Below are positions 4,851-15,466 of a DNA stretch of 42,117 bases, piece after piece. Position 1 is the stretch's first letter. Every line of letters starts with the position of its first letter. The DNA is from Aquiluna sp. (GTDB lineage Bacteria; Actinomycetota; Actinomycetes; Actinomycetales; Microbacteriaceae), in assembly GCA_017854485.1 (NCBI GenBank), contig JAFMHN010000010.1, positions 1-42,117 on the forward strand, in the 5' to 3' direction. The notes under the pieces are model-generated. The model did no database searches. It saw only the letters and a program-made list of their open reading frames with translations, and was not told the DNA's origin. A program made the position numbers and the translations under genes.

Positions 4851-6241
4851 TAGTTCAAACTCCAATGTGTTCCAGATGATGAGTCGGCAAGTTCAATGCC
4901 GATTTCTAGCAGCTGATCTCTAATCTGATCTGCTCGCTGATAGTTCTTTTCTTCTCTTGCTTTGTTCCGCTCCGAGATTAGAGCTCCAATTACCTTGTCT
5001 AAGGCTTGGTGTTGAAGATTCGAATCCTTTGAGCTCTCCGGTGCTAAGCCTAGGACATCAAGCATCGCAACTACTTCGCCCCAGCTTTGGTGCGCTTGAG
5101 CAAGACGCTGTTCATCCAGATCGGTGTTGCCAGATCTGGCAGTTTCGTGAATGACTGCCAGCGCCCCCGGCACATTCAGGTCATCATTCATGTGCTCTTG
5201 AAACTCAGCTGGCAATTGCGACTGCGCAACTTCGCTGAACCTGGTCTCCGCCAGCTCGCGCTCACAGCGTTCGACAAAACCGTGAAGCCGTGCCAGCGCT
5301 GCAGCTGACTCAATTGGTCCTTCTGGCTGATAATCCAAAACTGATCGATAGTGAGCGCTGGCCAGGTAATAGCGGACCGCTTTATCGCTGACACCAGCAA
5401 ATAGCTGCTCCGAGGAAACCGAATTGCCCAGTGACTTTGACATCTTTTGACCCTGGATGCTCACCAGGCCATTGTGGACCCAGTAGTTTGCAAAGGCATG
5501 ACCAGCGGCATTGGACTGAGCTAGCTCGTTTTCGTGGTGAGGGAACCGAAGATCCAAGCCACCGCCGTGAATGTCAAACTGCTGGCCCAGAAAGTGGGCG
5601 GCCATCGCTGAGCACTCAATGTGCCAACCAGGACGACCTCTACCAAACGGAGCATCCCAGCTCGCACTCTCGGGTTCGCTGTCTTTGGCCTGTTTCCAGA
5701 GTGCGAAGTCCTGTGGGTTGCGCTTTGACTTGTCGACCGATTCGCTTTCCATGTCTTCAAGTTTTTGATGAGTTAGTGCGCCATAGTCTGCCCACTTAGC
5801 GGTGTCGAAATAAACATTGCTGGATCCATCCAGTCCCTGATAGGCATGACCTGAGTTCATCAGCTGCTGGATCAGCTCAATCATCTGCGGAATGTGCCCG
5901 GTCGCACGAGGTTCAGCTGCAGGTGGAGCCAGGTCTAGTCGCCTGTAATCTGCTGCGAATTCTTGCTCATACTTATAGGCAAGCGCCCACCACTCAGTCC
6001 CGGTCTCGCTGGCATTTTCCAGAACTTTGTCATCGATGTCGGTGACATTGCGAATCATCTGAACCTTGAGACCCTGACTTTCAAACCACCTGGCCATCAA
6101 GTCATAGGCCAGCGCTGCACGAAGGTGGCCGATGTGCGGGCTTGATTGCACGGTCGGTCCGCACACATAGATAGAAACACGGCCGGGAACCAGCGGCTTG
6201 AAATCCCGCAGCTCGCCATCTTTAGTATCAAAGAGCTTCAT
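4850..6241 (-). CDS. cysS: Cysteinyl-tRNA synthetase
   Basis: 463 residues, close to the usual ~460-470. The zinc and cysteine-binding CGPT motif (C27), HIGH (36-39), the later zinc-site HHENE context and KMSKS in GQKMSKSLGN are all present. It charges tRNA-Cys in the cytoplasm. The ATG at 6241 gives the family-typical start MKLFDTKDGELRDF; a GTG at 6259 would add six residues and overlap the ispDF stop. The gap to ispDF is 10 bases, so transcription is shared. This is the canonical CysS rather than the shorter MshC ligase paralogue. Confidence 0.95.
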   Translation of the reverse strand: MKLFDTKDGELRDFKPLVPGRVSIYVCGPTVQSSPHIGHLRAALAYDLMARWFESQGLKVQMIRNVTDIDDKVLENASETGTEWWALAYKYEQEFAADYRRLDLAPPAAEPRATGHIPQMIELIQQLMNSGHAYQGLDGSSNVYFDTAKWADYGALTHQKLEDMESESVDKSKRNPQDFALWKQAKDSEPESASWDAPFGRGRPGWHIECSAMAAHFLGQQFDIHGGGLDLRFPHHENELAQSNAAGHAFANYWVHNGLVSIQGQKMSKSLGNSVSSEQLFAGVSDKAVRYYLASAHYRSVLDYQPEGPIESAAALARLHGFVERCERELAETRFSEVAQSQLPAEFQEHMNDDLNVPGALAVIHETARSGNTDLDEQRLAQAHQSWGEVVAMLDVLGLAPESSKDSNLQHQALDKVIGALISERNKAREEKNYQRADQIRDQLLEIGIELADSSSGTHWSLN

Positions 6242-11737: not shown

Positions 11738-12802
11738 GTCAACATAGGGCAGCAGTGCCCTTGCCTGACTTGGCTGAATCCCCGCGGCAATAGCAAGGTC
11801 AATAAAAAGTGGCCTGACCTGCATCAGTACCGCCGACTCTGAAGTCGTCAGCGGTGGATCAAAAGTTTTTGGATCCAGGGAGGCAGGGATTTTTCGGAGG
11901 TATTTTCTGGCTTTTTGCGTCACCGAAAAGTCATCGGAGGTTTGCTCGAGCAACTCTGTAGCGATGATTATTTTGCCAATAACTGCGGCCAGCTGCGGCC
12001 TCGGTTTCGAGTCCCGGACCAAGTAGTCAACCCGCCTGGTGAGCACCCGTAAGTTCCTGGTGGCATAGTCCATGCCGGCTGCAACTTGGAGCTGCTCCGA
12101 TATTTCCTTTTGTGCCCAGCGATAAAAAGGGGAAACTTTAGCAATTGCCGATGCGCTTTCCAGTGAGCTGGTCCAGTTGTCCAGTAGCGGCTGGGTTCTT
12201 CTAATTTCATCCAGGGCCTGATCGGCCAGCTCAACATTTGGTGCCCGAAGCACCGCTGCCACCGAACTCAAGGTTGCTCGAAAAACGGCAAACAGAGCCT
12301 TTGAATCCTGCCTGACAAGGCGAATCGGATTACGCGGCAGTAGTGAGACAAAAATAAGTGCGACAAGTCCGCCGATGAGGCCATCGATTGCGCGCGAGTA
12401 GATGCCGGTCACGGGGGTTTGTAACAGTTGAACCAAAACCGCCTGAATGGCAACGGTGATCGTGAAGGCCGGGTTCGAGGTGAAAAGCCTTGCGAGCAAC
12501 AGCGCGAGCAAAATTGCAAAGCCGAGCTGAATAACTCCCTTGCCAAAGACTTGCAGCAGGGTTTCGCTCAAAACAACGCCGGAGAACATGGCAATTGCTG
12601 TTGAGAGAACCTGCTTCGGTTTTGTGTCGCGACTAAAACCCAAGGAAGAGATTGCGACAGTGACCGCAAGCAGCGGAACCGCGTGACCCAAACCAAAGTG
12701 TGCAATCCAGTAGGCAGTCATTGCTGCCAAAACAATCTGACTGATTGTCCAGAGTGAGTCTCTGACCCTGGAAACCGAGAACCGGATTACAAAGCGGTTC
12801 AT
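11735..12802 (-). CDS. FUSC-family membrane protein (aromatic-acid-exporter-like)
   Basis: 355 residues. The N-terminal ~155 residues hold about five to six membrane helices in FUSC/ArAE pattern, ending in GLIGGLVALIFVSLLP. The C-terminal ~200 residues are soluble and helical, presumably cytoplasmic. Relatives include efflux proteins for aromatic acids and proteins of unknown role; substrate cannot be inferred. Its ATG overlaps the ygfZ stop in ATGA and has GGAAAG just upstream, so it is translated with ygfZ. Confidence 0.78.
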   Translation of the reverse strand: MNRFVIRFSVSRVRDSLWTISQIVLAAMTAYWIAHFGLGHAVPLLAVTVAISSLGFSRDTKPKQVLSTAIAMFSGVVLSETLLQVFGKGVIQLGFAILLALLLARLFTSNPAFTITVAIQAVLVQLLQTPVTGIYSRAIDGLIGGLVALIFVSLLPRNPIRLVRQDSKALFAVFRATLSSVAAVLRAPNVELADQALDEIRRTQPLLDNWTSSLESASAIAKVSPFYRWAQKEISEQLQVAAGMDYATRNLRVLTRRVDYLVRDSKPRPQLAAVIGKIIIATELLEQTSDDFSVTQKARKYLRKIPASLDPKTFDPPLTTSESAVLMQVRPLFIDLAIAAGIQPSQARALLPYVD

Positions 12803-13767
12803 TTCTTTCCGGTGAGCTTGAAAGCTGCAGGCCTCGGAAGGTTTGCGGCCTTGCCGGCATCATGCGGCACCAGCACCTGCTGCGTTGCCGAAATTCGTTG
12901 ACTTCCAATTTCAATTGAAAGGTCGAGATAAGGGGTGTTTCGATTCACCAGCGCAAGCGCAATTGACCCTTCCTCGTAATGCAGTGCACCAGCTCGGACG
13001 GTTCCGACTTCCTTGTCCTGATAAAAGACCTTGTCGTCCTTTGCGGCCAGCGAGTCGCCCTGTTCCAGGTGCAGAATGATGAGTCGCCTGGGTGGGTGTC
13101 CTAGGTTGTGAACTTTGGCAACAGCTTCCTGACCTCGATAGCAGCCCTTGCTCATGTGCACCGCAGATGACAACCAGTCAAATTCATGAGGCAGTGACCT
13201 GATGTCAATGTCGTCAATTTCAGGCCTACCAACTGCAATTCGGAGCGCCTGATAGGCAAGCAGTCCAGCCGGAGCCAGGTCCTTTGGCACCGAATCAGTC
13301 AAATACTCGCGATAGGCAAACTCTTCCCTGGATTCGGCATAGCGAACCGAGAATTTTGACTCCAGCGAAAATCCGTCAACCCAGCAGGGCGCGTCAAAAT
13401 CAAAAAAGCCACCAATGCAAACGAGGTCTTCCCTTTTAGAAACCTCAACCCTTGACCGAAAGATCATTTTTGTGAGCCAAGCAAGCATGGCTTCGAGTTT
13501 TGAAGCGGCGACAATCACCAGGACGCCCTGCTCGGTGGCGATTATCTTGAGCTGCTGCTCAACGTGTCCCTGCGGAGTCAGCAGTAACGCCTCAGTTGAC
13601 ATGCCGGATTCAAGATTCAAAATGTTTTGTGAAAGCAGTGAGTGAAGCCAGGACTTTGTGTCTGGTCCGACAATCTCGATGACGCCCTGGTCGCTTCTTT
13701 GGACGAATGCCCCGCCGGCAAGTAGCTTCCGCTGCTCCAGCAGCGGATTTCCAAAGTGGTCAGTCAT
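12799..13767 (-). CDS. ygfZ: YgfZ/GcvT-like folate-binding Fe-S cluster maintenance protein
   Basis: 322 residues. The signature K-G-C-Y-R-G-Q-E is present in HMSKGCYRGQEAVAKVH, with the essential Cys. The N-terminal GcvT-like folate-binding part is seen in FVQRSDQGVIEIVGPD and LHSLLSQNI. YgfZ supports repair or maturation of certain Fe-S enzymes with tetrahydrofolate. It overlaps the stop of the nitrobindin-like gene by eight bases and overlaps the FUSC gene by four, so the three are translationally coupled. YgfZ together with a nitrobindin-like barrel suggests an oxidative or nitrosative stress theme; that is inference. Confidence 0.9.
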   Translation of the reverse strand: MTDHFGNPLLEQRKLLAGGAFVQRSDQGVIEIVGPDTKSWLHSLLSQNILNLESGMSTEALLLTPQGHVEQQLKIIATEQGVLVIVAASKLEAMLAWLTKMIFRSRVEVSKREDLVCIGGFFDFDAPCWVDGFSLESKFSVRYAESREEFAYREYLTDSVPKDLAPAGLLAYQALRIAVGRPEIDDIDIRSLPHEFDWLSSAVHMSKGCYRGQEAVAKVHNLGHPPRRLIILHLEQGDSLAAKDDKVFYQDKEVGTVRAGALHYEEGSIALALVNRNTPYLDLSIEIGSQRISATQQVLVPHDAGKAANLPRPAAFKLTGKK

Positions 13768-14356
13768 TTTTCTTTTCCAAGCGAGCAGAAGCGTGTGAGC
13801 TAAGTGGTTTTCCTAGCGCCGCCATGTCCCAGGCCCAGAGCAGTGCTCCTTCCACTAGGCCATACATTCTTTGCCCTGCTGAATATTCTTTGGAGTGTGG
13901 AGAGCGCAGCACCGCATCTGTTGCAATGTCCACTCTTGCCGCTTTGATCTGACCGAAATAAAGCTCTGAAACCGCGTCAGAGTTTGTGATGATCGCCTCA
14001 ATGTCAAAGCCACCGGTGGCATTACGAAACTCTTCCAGCTGCTCGCGAGACTGGATAGTTGACTCAGCCTTGCCCGGCAATAGTCCGGGTCCTGGTTCGT
14101 GGTCGAGAGTGTTTTTCGCAAGCATCCAGAATCCGTGCTCTTGGCTAATAACCGACCCGTCGGCTTGCCTAGAGATTGCTTGGTATTCCAGCTTGCCATT
14201 TGGCAGCGGCAAAAATTGCATTTCTTGAAAGAATTCGACCTCTAGTGGGTCTTTGCCCTGCACTGGATAACTGACCACACCCGACCCGCTCCAGTGCCCG
14301 AGCAAAAATGTGAACGGGGTTAGCTCAATCGGGAGGTCGTCCGGAATTACGAACAA
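13760..14356 (-). CDS. Nitrobindin-like heme-binding beta-barrel (THAP4/FABP fold)
   Basis: 198 residues from a TTG at 14356, which gives the family-typical beginning MFVIPDDLPIEL then FLLGHWSGSG (the GxWxGxG motif). The C-terminus carries PLSSHASARL, matching the conserved region that supplies the proximal heme histidine in true nitrobindins. The family binds ferric heme and reacts with NO or peroxynitrite, although some members lack heme. The TTG lies one base after the stop of the 36-residue gene; a TTG at 14416 would run through that gene and has no support. A weak GAG is the only ribosome-site hint, so coupling is likely. Confidence 0.85.
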   Translation of the reverse strand: MFVIPDDLPIELTPFTFLLGHWSGSGVVSYPVQGKDPLEVEFFQEMQFLPLPNGKLEYQAISRQADGSVISQEHGFWMLAKNTLDHEPGPGLLPGKAESTIQSREQLEEFRNATGGFDIEAIITNSDAVSELYFGQIKAARVDIATDAVLRSPHSKEYSAGQRMYGLVEGALLWAWDMAALGKPLSSHASARLEKKND

Positions 14357-14357
14357 A

Positions 14358-14468
14358 TTAGCTCTGGCCCTTAAATAGCTTGTAGACAACCAGCGCGGAT
14401 ACTCCGGCGATTGCAACGGTAGCCAAGATAAGCAAGCCGGTAAACAGGATTTCTAGTGCCAACAACAT
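14358..14468 (-). CDS. 36-residue single-helix membrane protein
   Basis: An ORF of 37 codons from ATG 14468 to TAA, below usual size cut-offs. The product has a start MLLALEILF, one continuous hydrophobic helix of about 25 residues and a basic, polar end YKLFKGQS, so it should insert with its C-terminus in the cytoplasm. TAGACT lies 6 bases upstream of the ATG, with no Shine-Dalgarno. It fits exactly between the 84-residue gene (9-base gap) and the nitrobindin-like gene (1-base gap), which strongly supports its reality. Small helices ending in K-L-F-K-G-Q-x occur beside similar genes in actinobacteria to my recollection; function unknown. Confidence 0.75.
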   Translation of the reverse strand: MLLALEILFTGLLILATVAIAGVSALVVYKLFKGQS

Positions 14469-14474
14469 GGTCTA

Positions 14475-14480
14475 AGTCTA
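14475..14480 (-). promoter_or_regulatory. -10 hexamer (TAGACT) overlapping a stop codon, before the 36-residue gene
   Basis: The TAG stop of the 84-residue gene begins TAGACT, which ends 6 bases before the ATG at 14468. Candidate leaderless promoter. Confidence 0.4.
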
Positions 14481-14732
14481 ACTGCCCAAAGCAATAACTG
14501 TCATAACTCCAAGGATTGCAACCGTCCCGGCTGAGACATAAACCTGCTGCCTCACGGTGTCTTTCGCCTCCTTGGACAACAGGTGTCCGAGGCTCACAAC
14601 GGCAATCGCCGCACCCGCGATTGCAGCGAAAGCATTGTAGAGACGGTCATCGGAGGAGCTGGCCAGCGCCCATAGGCCAGCGATTAGGACCGCTGTCCAT
14701 ATCAAAGAAATCTGCAACCACTGCCTGCTCAC
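14478..14732 (-). CDS. 84-residue membrane protein of unknown function
   Basis: Predicted three-helix membrane protein (about residues 6-26, 31-52 and 62-84) with a short charged loop KEAKDTVRQQ between helices 2 and 3. Not recognised. The start is GTG at 14732, the only one after an in-frame TAA just upstream. There is no Shine-Dalgarno; TAGAGT lies 7 bases upstream. First gene of the minus-strand group that continues through the 36-residue protein, nitrobindin-like, ygfZ, FUSC and gpmA. Confidence 0.7.
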   Translation of the reverse strand: MSRQWLQISLIWTAVLIAGLWALASSSDDRLYNAFAAIAGAAIAVVSLGHLLSKEAKDTVRQQVYVSAGTVAILGVMTVIALGS

Positions 14733-14797: not shown

Positions 14798-15466
14798 GTG
14801 GCAGTTGTATTGTGCATATCCCCCGGTGGGCAGACTCCGCTGAGCGCGCTGGAGGCCCTAGGCCACCAACTCATTCAAGTAACTTTTGATCCGCAGCAGC
14901 TTGCCGATGCCCCGAGGCACGATGTGGTGCTGCTTGATTGCCGACACAACTTAATGGGCGCAAAGGCTGTGGCACGAATTCTCAATGCTGCCGGCTGGAG
15001 TCGGCCCCTGATGCTGGTTGCAAACGAGAGTGTGCTGGCTGCAGTTAGCGCGGAATGGGGCCTCAAGGATTTTGTTTTGGAGGGCGCCTCACTGGCCGAG
15101 GTAGATGCCAGGGTTCGGATCCTGTTGGATGCCAAGCCCACGCAACAAAGTGAGGTCAAAAACTCAACCGGACTAACCATTGACCTTGCTAGCTACACAG
15201 CCAAAATTGCCGGCAAGGCACTGGATTTGACATTCAAGGAATTTGAATTGCTTCGCCACCTAAACGAGAACCCAGGCCGGGTGTTCTCAAGGGAACAGCT
15301 ACTGAGCGAAGTCTGGGGCTACGACTACTTTGGCGGAACCAGAACGGTCGATGTCCACATCCGTCGCCTGCGCGCAAAGCTCGGTGAGCACGAGTCGCTA
15401 ATTGGCACGGTTCGCAACGTTGGCTACCGCCTGAATCCAGATGGTCAACCGGAAGAAAATAGTTAA
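14798..15466 (+). CDS. glnR: GlnR-like orphan OmpR-family regulator
   Basis: 222 residues. The N-terminal receiver-like domain has one acidic residue in VVLLDCRHN but lacks the double-acid pocket and the switch lysine, as expected for actinobacterial GlnR, which works without a partner kinase. AAVSAEWGLKDFVLEGASLAEVDARV aligns well (by memory) with GlnR proteins; this stretch is split by no gap. The C-terminal winged helix has FKEFELLRHL, RTVDVHIRRLRAKL and VRNVGYRLNP. GlnR controls nitrogen assimilation and in some species interacts with phosphate control. GTG start with GGAGGG 7 bases upstream. ppk follows 35 bases later. Confidence 0.85.
   Translation: MAVVLCISPGGQTPLSALEALGHQLIQVTFDPQQLADAPRHDVVLLDCRHNLMGAKAVARILNAAGWSRPLMLVANESVLAAVSAEWGLKDFVLEGASLAEVDARVRILLDAKPTQQSEVKNSTGLTIDLASYTAKIAGKALDLTFKEFELLRHLNENPGRVFSREQLLSEVWGYDYFGGTRTVDVHIRRLRAKLGEHESLIGTVRNVGYRLNPDGQPEENS

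Follow-up and report, generated by a model that had tools for sequence, protein, structure and literature searches.

Introduction

One-helix subunits are found in membrane enzymes, as exemplified by CydX and KdpF. In the type A succinate dehydrogenase 2 (Sdh2) of Mycobacterium smegmatis, the available part of one report lists five subunits, including SdhF (PMC12713383). In the accessible sections of the structural study of this enzyme, SdhF is described as one helix near helix I of SdhC that also touches helix V, SdhB and lipids; it fully blocks the proximal quinone (Qp) pocket, and menaquinone is located at distal sites (PMC7447783). The same sections state that SdhF homologues occur mainly in mycobacteria (Gong et al. 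2020, PMC7447783), and a review, in the portion available, refers to SdhF as an extra single-pass subunit of the class A enzymes (PMC10238741). A separate line of work on M. tuberculosis reported MTB_ORF_67572, a predicted transmembrane small ORF (smORF) in the 5′UTR of Rv0813c, the nitrobindin orthologue. According to the accessible text, this smORF is conserved in Gordonia, Rhodococcus and mycobacteria, and a role as an upstream ORF (uORF) was suggested for it (PMC11133741, 2024). No paper listed in the literature searches connects SdhF to Rv0813c or to nitrobindin; these searches covered neither preprints nor most subscription papers and do not imply absence from print. The available portions of three further papers contain nothing on the small gene (PMC13332983, where SdhF appears only in a reference, PMC10105947 and PMC4255298).

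Here we describe a 36-residue membrane protein of an actinobacterium that is most likely a further SdhF, a subunit known so far mainly from mycobacteria, and that is encoded far from the rest of its putative enzyme.

A conserved small gene upstream of a nitrobindin-like gene

The window, the whole stretch of 42,117 nucleotides that was analyzed, is located on contig C4 of a draft genome of 1.22 Mb. The features surrounding the small gene are as follows.

12799–13767, minus strand: YgfZ/CAF17-like gene (Fe-S cluster assembly/insertion family by model name); TIGR03317, E = 4.4e-23
13760–14356, minus strand: nitrobindin-like gene (THAP4-type heme-binding barrel) with a TTG start; Pfam PF08768, E = 2.8e-29
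14358–14468, minus strand: sdhF-like gene, 36 aa, ATG start and TAA stop
14475–14480, minus strand: −10 hexamer TAGACT, 6 bases before the ATG; transcription start predicted at the A of the ATG (14468)
14478–14732, minus strand: 84-residue three-helix ORF with a GTG start
14798–15466, plus strand: divergent GlnR-like winged-helix response regulator, a syntenic landmark; PF21695, E = 2e-26, and PF00486, E = 1.1e-28

The product of the ORF at 14358–14468 on the minus strand is MLLALEILFTGLLILATVAIAGVSALVVYKLFKGQS. As the first-pass annotation described, the ORF is complete and fits between two genes, with 9 bases (14469–14477) between it and the upstream 84-residue ORF and a single base between it and the TTG at 14356. 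That annotation recommended a tblastn search of relatives and named frameshifts or a lack of synonymous bias as contrary evidence. The search matched the small protein in 69 of 98 genomes at E ≤ 0.0013 and in 76 at E ≤ 10, the own genome included, and the match rows contain no stop codons. Within the genus, the gene is present in 19 of 22 genomes, and the three genomes without it are assemblies of 50–64% completeness. Across 20 close loci, of which 19 belong to the genus and one, L009, to a different genus, the mean pN/pS is 0.145, a rough value because synonymous differences are near saturation, and the variable columns fall on codon positions 1, 2 and 3 in the numbers 20, 7 and 33. The spread across genomes and the purifying selection rule out a chance ORF, and the ORF is a genuine conserved gene.

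The association extends to further relatives, in which 38 of 39 nitrobindin loci carry the small gene. It stands within 300 bases before the start of the nitrobindin match in 36 of these; the remaining two comprise one truncated contig and one partial nitrobindin match. The sole miss, L180, is a sequence that begins inside nitrobindin. A second copy of the small gene was observed in a same-family genome (L074, G046:C1:2175138-2175236), where nitrobindin, ygfZ and glnR were not found in the fetched stretch. In two loci from another class of the same phylum (L097 and L101), a similar ORF of 32 residues lies between glnR-like and ygfZ-like genes, which hints that the small gene predates the class. 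Three very distant matches (L099, L103 and L104), where nitrobindin, ygfZ and glnR were not found, were not counted as SdhF.

The AlphaFold2 single-sequence model predicts a helix over residues 2–35 with a mean pLDDT of 91.6. The 19-residue hydropathy reaches 2.48, an acidic residue (E6) is located near the N-terminus, and the C-terminus is basic (KLFKGQS). The protein is thus the single-helix membrane protein with a basic tail that had been noted at first reading, and its size and topology are those expected of SdhF (about 3–4 kDa, one transmembrane helix). Conservation among 32 sequences follows one face of the helix (permutation p = 0.0067), as expected for a helix that packs against a partner with one face and meets lipid with the opposite one. 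The window protein has no match at cut-off in Pfam or NCBIfam, the one Pfam match (E = 0.21) lying below its cut-off. Of the 30 aligned members, at most three match any one family (best E = 0.0036), so that membership in a known small-protein family of these collections was rejected. The putative role is reminiscent of that of CydX and KdpF, in which a tiny helix completes a large membrane enzyme; the window protein differs in having no Pfam or NCBIfam model at cut-off.

Relationship to SdhF

The window protein alone has no match in the PDB at E ≤ 10, and the link to SdhF therefore requires a profile. A profile from a 30-sequence alignment, in which the window protein is joined by 29 relatives from the same family and order, matches chain E of 6LUM (6lum_E), the SdhF of M. 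smegmatis succinate dehydrogenase 2, at E = 4e-5. This is the only PDB match below E = 0.2, the next being at 0.26. The connection is reinforced by family f22, which we take to be Mycobacteriaceae (f21 is taken to be Streptomycetaceae). The five f22 loci (L088, L094, L096, L100 and L102) all carry a small gene before nitrobindin, and the L102 product aligns with the full 32 residues of 6lum_E (E = 5.9e-13). Close homologues of the structurally defined SdhF are thus encoded in the same place as the window gene. Profile homology and the common position upstream of nitrobindin together make orthology with SdhF likely.

The two proteins are both single helices with an aligned core, of 36 residues in the window and 32 in 6lum_E, and they differ at the ends. 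The tail of the window group is basic, KGQ[RSK], in contrast to [TS]DES in f22, and the window group has a longer N-terminus with a conserved LE. The M. tuberculosis MTB_ORF_67572 resembles the window gene in being a transmembrane small ORF upstream of a nitrobindin orthologue; it differs in having been published as a possible uORF and not as SdhF. Its position and the f22 loci suggest that it is probably sdhF.

Profile homology, synteny, the presence of SdhA–SdhD in the host, co-occurrence, purifying selection and a conserved −10 element all point in the same direction. On this sequence-level basis, we consider it very probable that the window ORF encodes an SdhF orthologue. SdhF is a single-helix protein of 3 kDa that belongs to the diheme (type A) succinate:menaquinone oxidoreductase.

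Co-occurrence with succinate dehydrogenase

The host encodes an sdhC-sdhD-sdhA-sdhB cluster on contig C29, separate from the contig of the small gene. The best PDB matches of the host SdhC and SdhD are 6lum_C (E = 8.6e-47) and 6lum_D (E = 8.3e-37), respectively, and the genome therefore contains the two-subunit (SdhC and SdhD) type A membrane domain that an SdhF would join. Within the printed alignments, the histidines of the host SdhC and SdhD are common to 6lum_C and 6lum_D. The shared histidines presumably include the heme ligands. Directly downstream of the host sdhB (L107:4434-4880, G000:C29), an ORF resembling a Rieske-type iron-sulfur lipoprotein (CTHSGC...CGCHGA) was noted by eye.

Co-occurrence was examined in 246 genomes of the class, at least 95% complete and drawn evenly. 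SdhF was found at E ≤ 0.01 in 147 of them and PF01127 at E ≤ 0.01 in 174. A strong match to PF01127, which represents the SdhC/SdhD type, was defined as E ≤ 1e-15, a threshold set after the gap in the scores had been seen; 117 genomes in 22 families passed it. Every one of these 117 genomes has SdhF at E ≤ 1e-3 (116 at E ≤ 1e-4), as opposed to 27 of the 129 genomes without a strong match. The window gene thus co-occurs with the same SdhC/SdhD type as the SdhF of M. smegmatis. The phi coefficient between SdhF and strong PF01127 is 0.80, although genomes are related by descent and the test overstates their independence. The contrast is visible within family f18, where SdhF is present in the sole sampled genome with a strong succinate dehydrogenase signal (G075) and absent from the four that lack the signal. 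The published description of a mainly mycobacterial subunit differs from this distribution across 22 families.

The 27 exceptions, out of 144 genomes with the small gene at E ≤ 1e-3, count against the SdhF reading. They raise the alternative that the protein serves a different membrane complex, as a small subunit or a regulator, or that it has a further partner in addition to succinate dehydrogenase. They include 14 genomes with a weak PF01127 match in family f103, one in f96, and 12 without any PF01127 match. When the small gene is counted at E ≤ 0.01, 30 genomes lack a strong signal, and tblastn with the host SdhC gave one weak match among them at E ≤ 0.01. SdhA-family proteins occur in all 16 exception genomes examined, at 32–49% identity, which does not decide the class of these enzymes. 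The small protein was inspected in 16 of the 30 genomes. Its tail is altered and extended in some complete assemblies (G546 and G564), and such changes in genomes without a strong succinate dehydrogenase signal speak against the alternative. In G606, a fragmented assembly, the protein closely resembles that of a relative with the enzyme. Either the helix has another partner in the exception genomes, or succinate dehydrogenase was missed there. Reverse exceptions are absent among the 117 genomes with the strong signal, and cytochrome bd fares poorly as a different complex: its subunit I, used as a control and found at E ≤ 1e-20 in 199 of the 246 genomes, tracks the small gene with a phi of only 0.24 and was not found in the host draft genome at E ≤ 1e-20. 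Cytochrome bd was accordingly rejected as the partner, and we regard another complex or an additional partner as unlikely. From profile homology, the f22 synteny and co-occurrence, the partner of the window protein is most likely the succinate dehydrogenase encoded by sdhCDAB on contig C29.

Gene neighborhood

Synteny was evaluated in 71 loci, that is, 75 minus four without a tblastn match to the small protein (L070, L071, L072 and L075). Nitrobindin immediately follows the small gene in 64 of the 71, ygfZ lies downstream on the same strand in 67, and the GlnR-like regulator is divergently upstream in 55. A further 26 loci were compared, in 24 of which nitrobindin is next on the same strand, including 11 of 11 in f21 and 5 of 5 in f22; the other two are L097 and L101 from another class, with ygfZ in place of nitrobindin. 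Within the fetched stretches, ygfZ was found on that strand in none of the five f22 loci, and its link to the small gene is therefore not universal. As a genomic link, a neighborhood of nitrobindin and, in most loci, ygfZ would fit a function in the upkeep of heme- and Fe-S-containing respiratory enzymes.

The close spacing between the small gene and nitrobindin invites a different explanation, in which the ORF is a leader peptide or uORF whose translation sets the expression of nitrobindin one base downstream and whose peptide itself matters little. A TTG in the nitrobindin frame stands 0–2 bases after the small-gene stop in all 20 close loci. This arrangement would suit translational coupling, and it also supports the earlier suggestion that the small gene fixes the nitrobindin start at TTG 14356. 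The proposal made in 2024 for the smORF in the 5′UTR of Rv0813c, in the part of that paper available (PMC11133741), is of the same kind. However, selection acts at the amino-acid level and one helix face is conserved. Moreover, in seven of the 71 loci an adjacent nitrobindin was not found; ygfZ is next on the same strand in six of them, and the seventh is the second copy, L074. The nitrobindin family is also more widespread than the small gene, occurring somewhere in 245 of the 246 genomes compared with the 147 that carry the small gene at E ≤ 0.01. Given these observations, a purely regulatory uORF appears very unlikely.

The first-pass annotation had guessed that the small helix modulates a larger membrane partner, pointing to the neighboring 84-residue protein and a FUSC protein. 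The general idea is probably right; as for the partner, the evidence points to succinate dehydrogenase instead of the local proteins. Gene proximity favors the local candidates, and in many family-level loci a three-helix ORF of similar length stands upstream of the small gene. The 84-residue ORF is a real gene, but with a pN/pS of 0.414 (19 loci) it evolves faster than the small gene. Its tblastn matches at E ≤ 1e-3 are confined to the genus and L009; elsewhere the small gene persists, whereas the 84-residue protein is either missing or highly divergent. For the FUSC protein, whose place lies beyond the end of most fetched stretches, proximity was the evidence considered. We regard a function of the small protein in modulating the 84-residue or FUSC protein as exceedingly improbable. 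By eye, the three-helix ORFs of the family-level loci often carry a motif like QLA..K.GFV.R.

A conserved −10 element at a fixed distance from the start codon

The TAGACT hexamer, previously remarked on as a −10-like element belonging to the small gene, proved to be real by comparison. Promoters were counted in 69 loci, comprising the 71 minus L074 (the second copy) and L011 (with only 27 bases of upstream sequence). TANNNT occurs 6–7 bases before the start in 67 of the 69, at 6 bases in 62 and at 7 bases in five. When the 60 upstream bases were shuffled 200 times, the motif appeared at that spacing in 1.3 of the 69 loci on average and in 6 at most, and the background across the window is 23 of 2322 ATG/GTG codons. 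The two loci outside this spacing are L039, which has an 8-base spacer, and L058, which has an upstream ATG with the motif at 6 bases. Of the 62 loci with the 6-base spacer, 95% have a C at −1, and no −35 box was evident by eye in the regions upstream of the small genes. This placement is that of a leaderless actinobacterial gene, and a leaderless mRNA is therefore predicted. The small gene is probably translated from such an mRNA, as judged from the spacing.

The pattern was also inspected by eye in the more distant families. TANNNT lies 6–7 bases before a GTG in the five f22 loci, and one of L097 and L101 has TACGCT 7 bases before the ATG. The 11 f21 loci (L084-L087, L089-L093, L095 and L098) have a GTG start behind GGAG and no such hexamer at that distance. 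The natural reading of these sequences is an mRNA that is leaderless in most lineages seen and leadered in f21. In the window, the TAG stop of the 84-residue ORF (14478–14480, minus strand) forms the first three bases of the TAGACT hexamer, and most loci of the genus share this end point of the ORF, which lies 12 bases ahead of the small-gene ATG.

Proposed role and implications

In the proposed mechanism, transcription would start at the A of the small-gene ATG and continue into nitrobindin and probably ygfZ. The helix would insert with the N-terminus out and the basic tail in, an orientation taken only from the positive-inside rule, and would pack on helix I of SdhC, helix V and SdhB as in 6LUM. 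Once packed, it would close the proximal quinone pocket, and reduction of menaquinone would then occur at the distal sites, adjacent to heme bD. This role at the quinone site is likely, by analogy with the SdhF of M. smegmatis.

A wider proposal, which we hold tentatively and regard as possible rather than probable, concerns the class as a whole. SdhF may be a core component, the fifth subunit, of all type A succinate dehydrogenases in the class. The sdhF-nitrobindin unit stands apart from sdhCDAB, is followed by ygfZ in most of the lineages covered, f22 excepted, and would be expressed from an anciently conserved leaderless promoter; it may couple production of the quinone-site cap with the upkeep of NO/heme and Fe-S functions. 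Where succinate dehydrogenase has been lost, the helix may have been kept for a second partner.

If the identification as SdhF holds, the known range of this subunit widens greatly, correcting the published impression that it is mainly mycobacterial. A name and a testable role would be given to a gene that matches no Pfam or NCBIfam model at cut-off and that, judging by position, was called a possible uORF in M. tuberculosis. The locus is also the likely genomic address of the missing complex II subunit in Microbacteriaceae and in f21 (taken as Streptomycetaceae), an address needed by anyone solving or modeling complex II of those families. The fixed promoter-to-start spacing across families makes the small gene a clear example of deep conservation in a gene that is probably leaderless. 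When the starts within the first 30 codons of the 42 ORFs of at least 150 aa in the window were scanned, TANNNT was observed 6–7 bases upstream of seven, at 6241(−), 11724(−), 24189(+), 26573(−), 28121(+), 37100(−) and 13(+), so other genes in the window may be leaderless as well.
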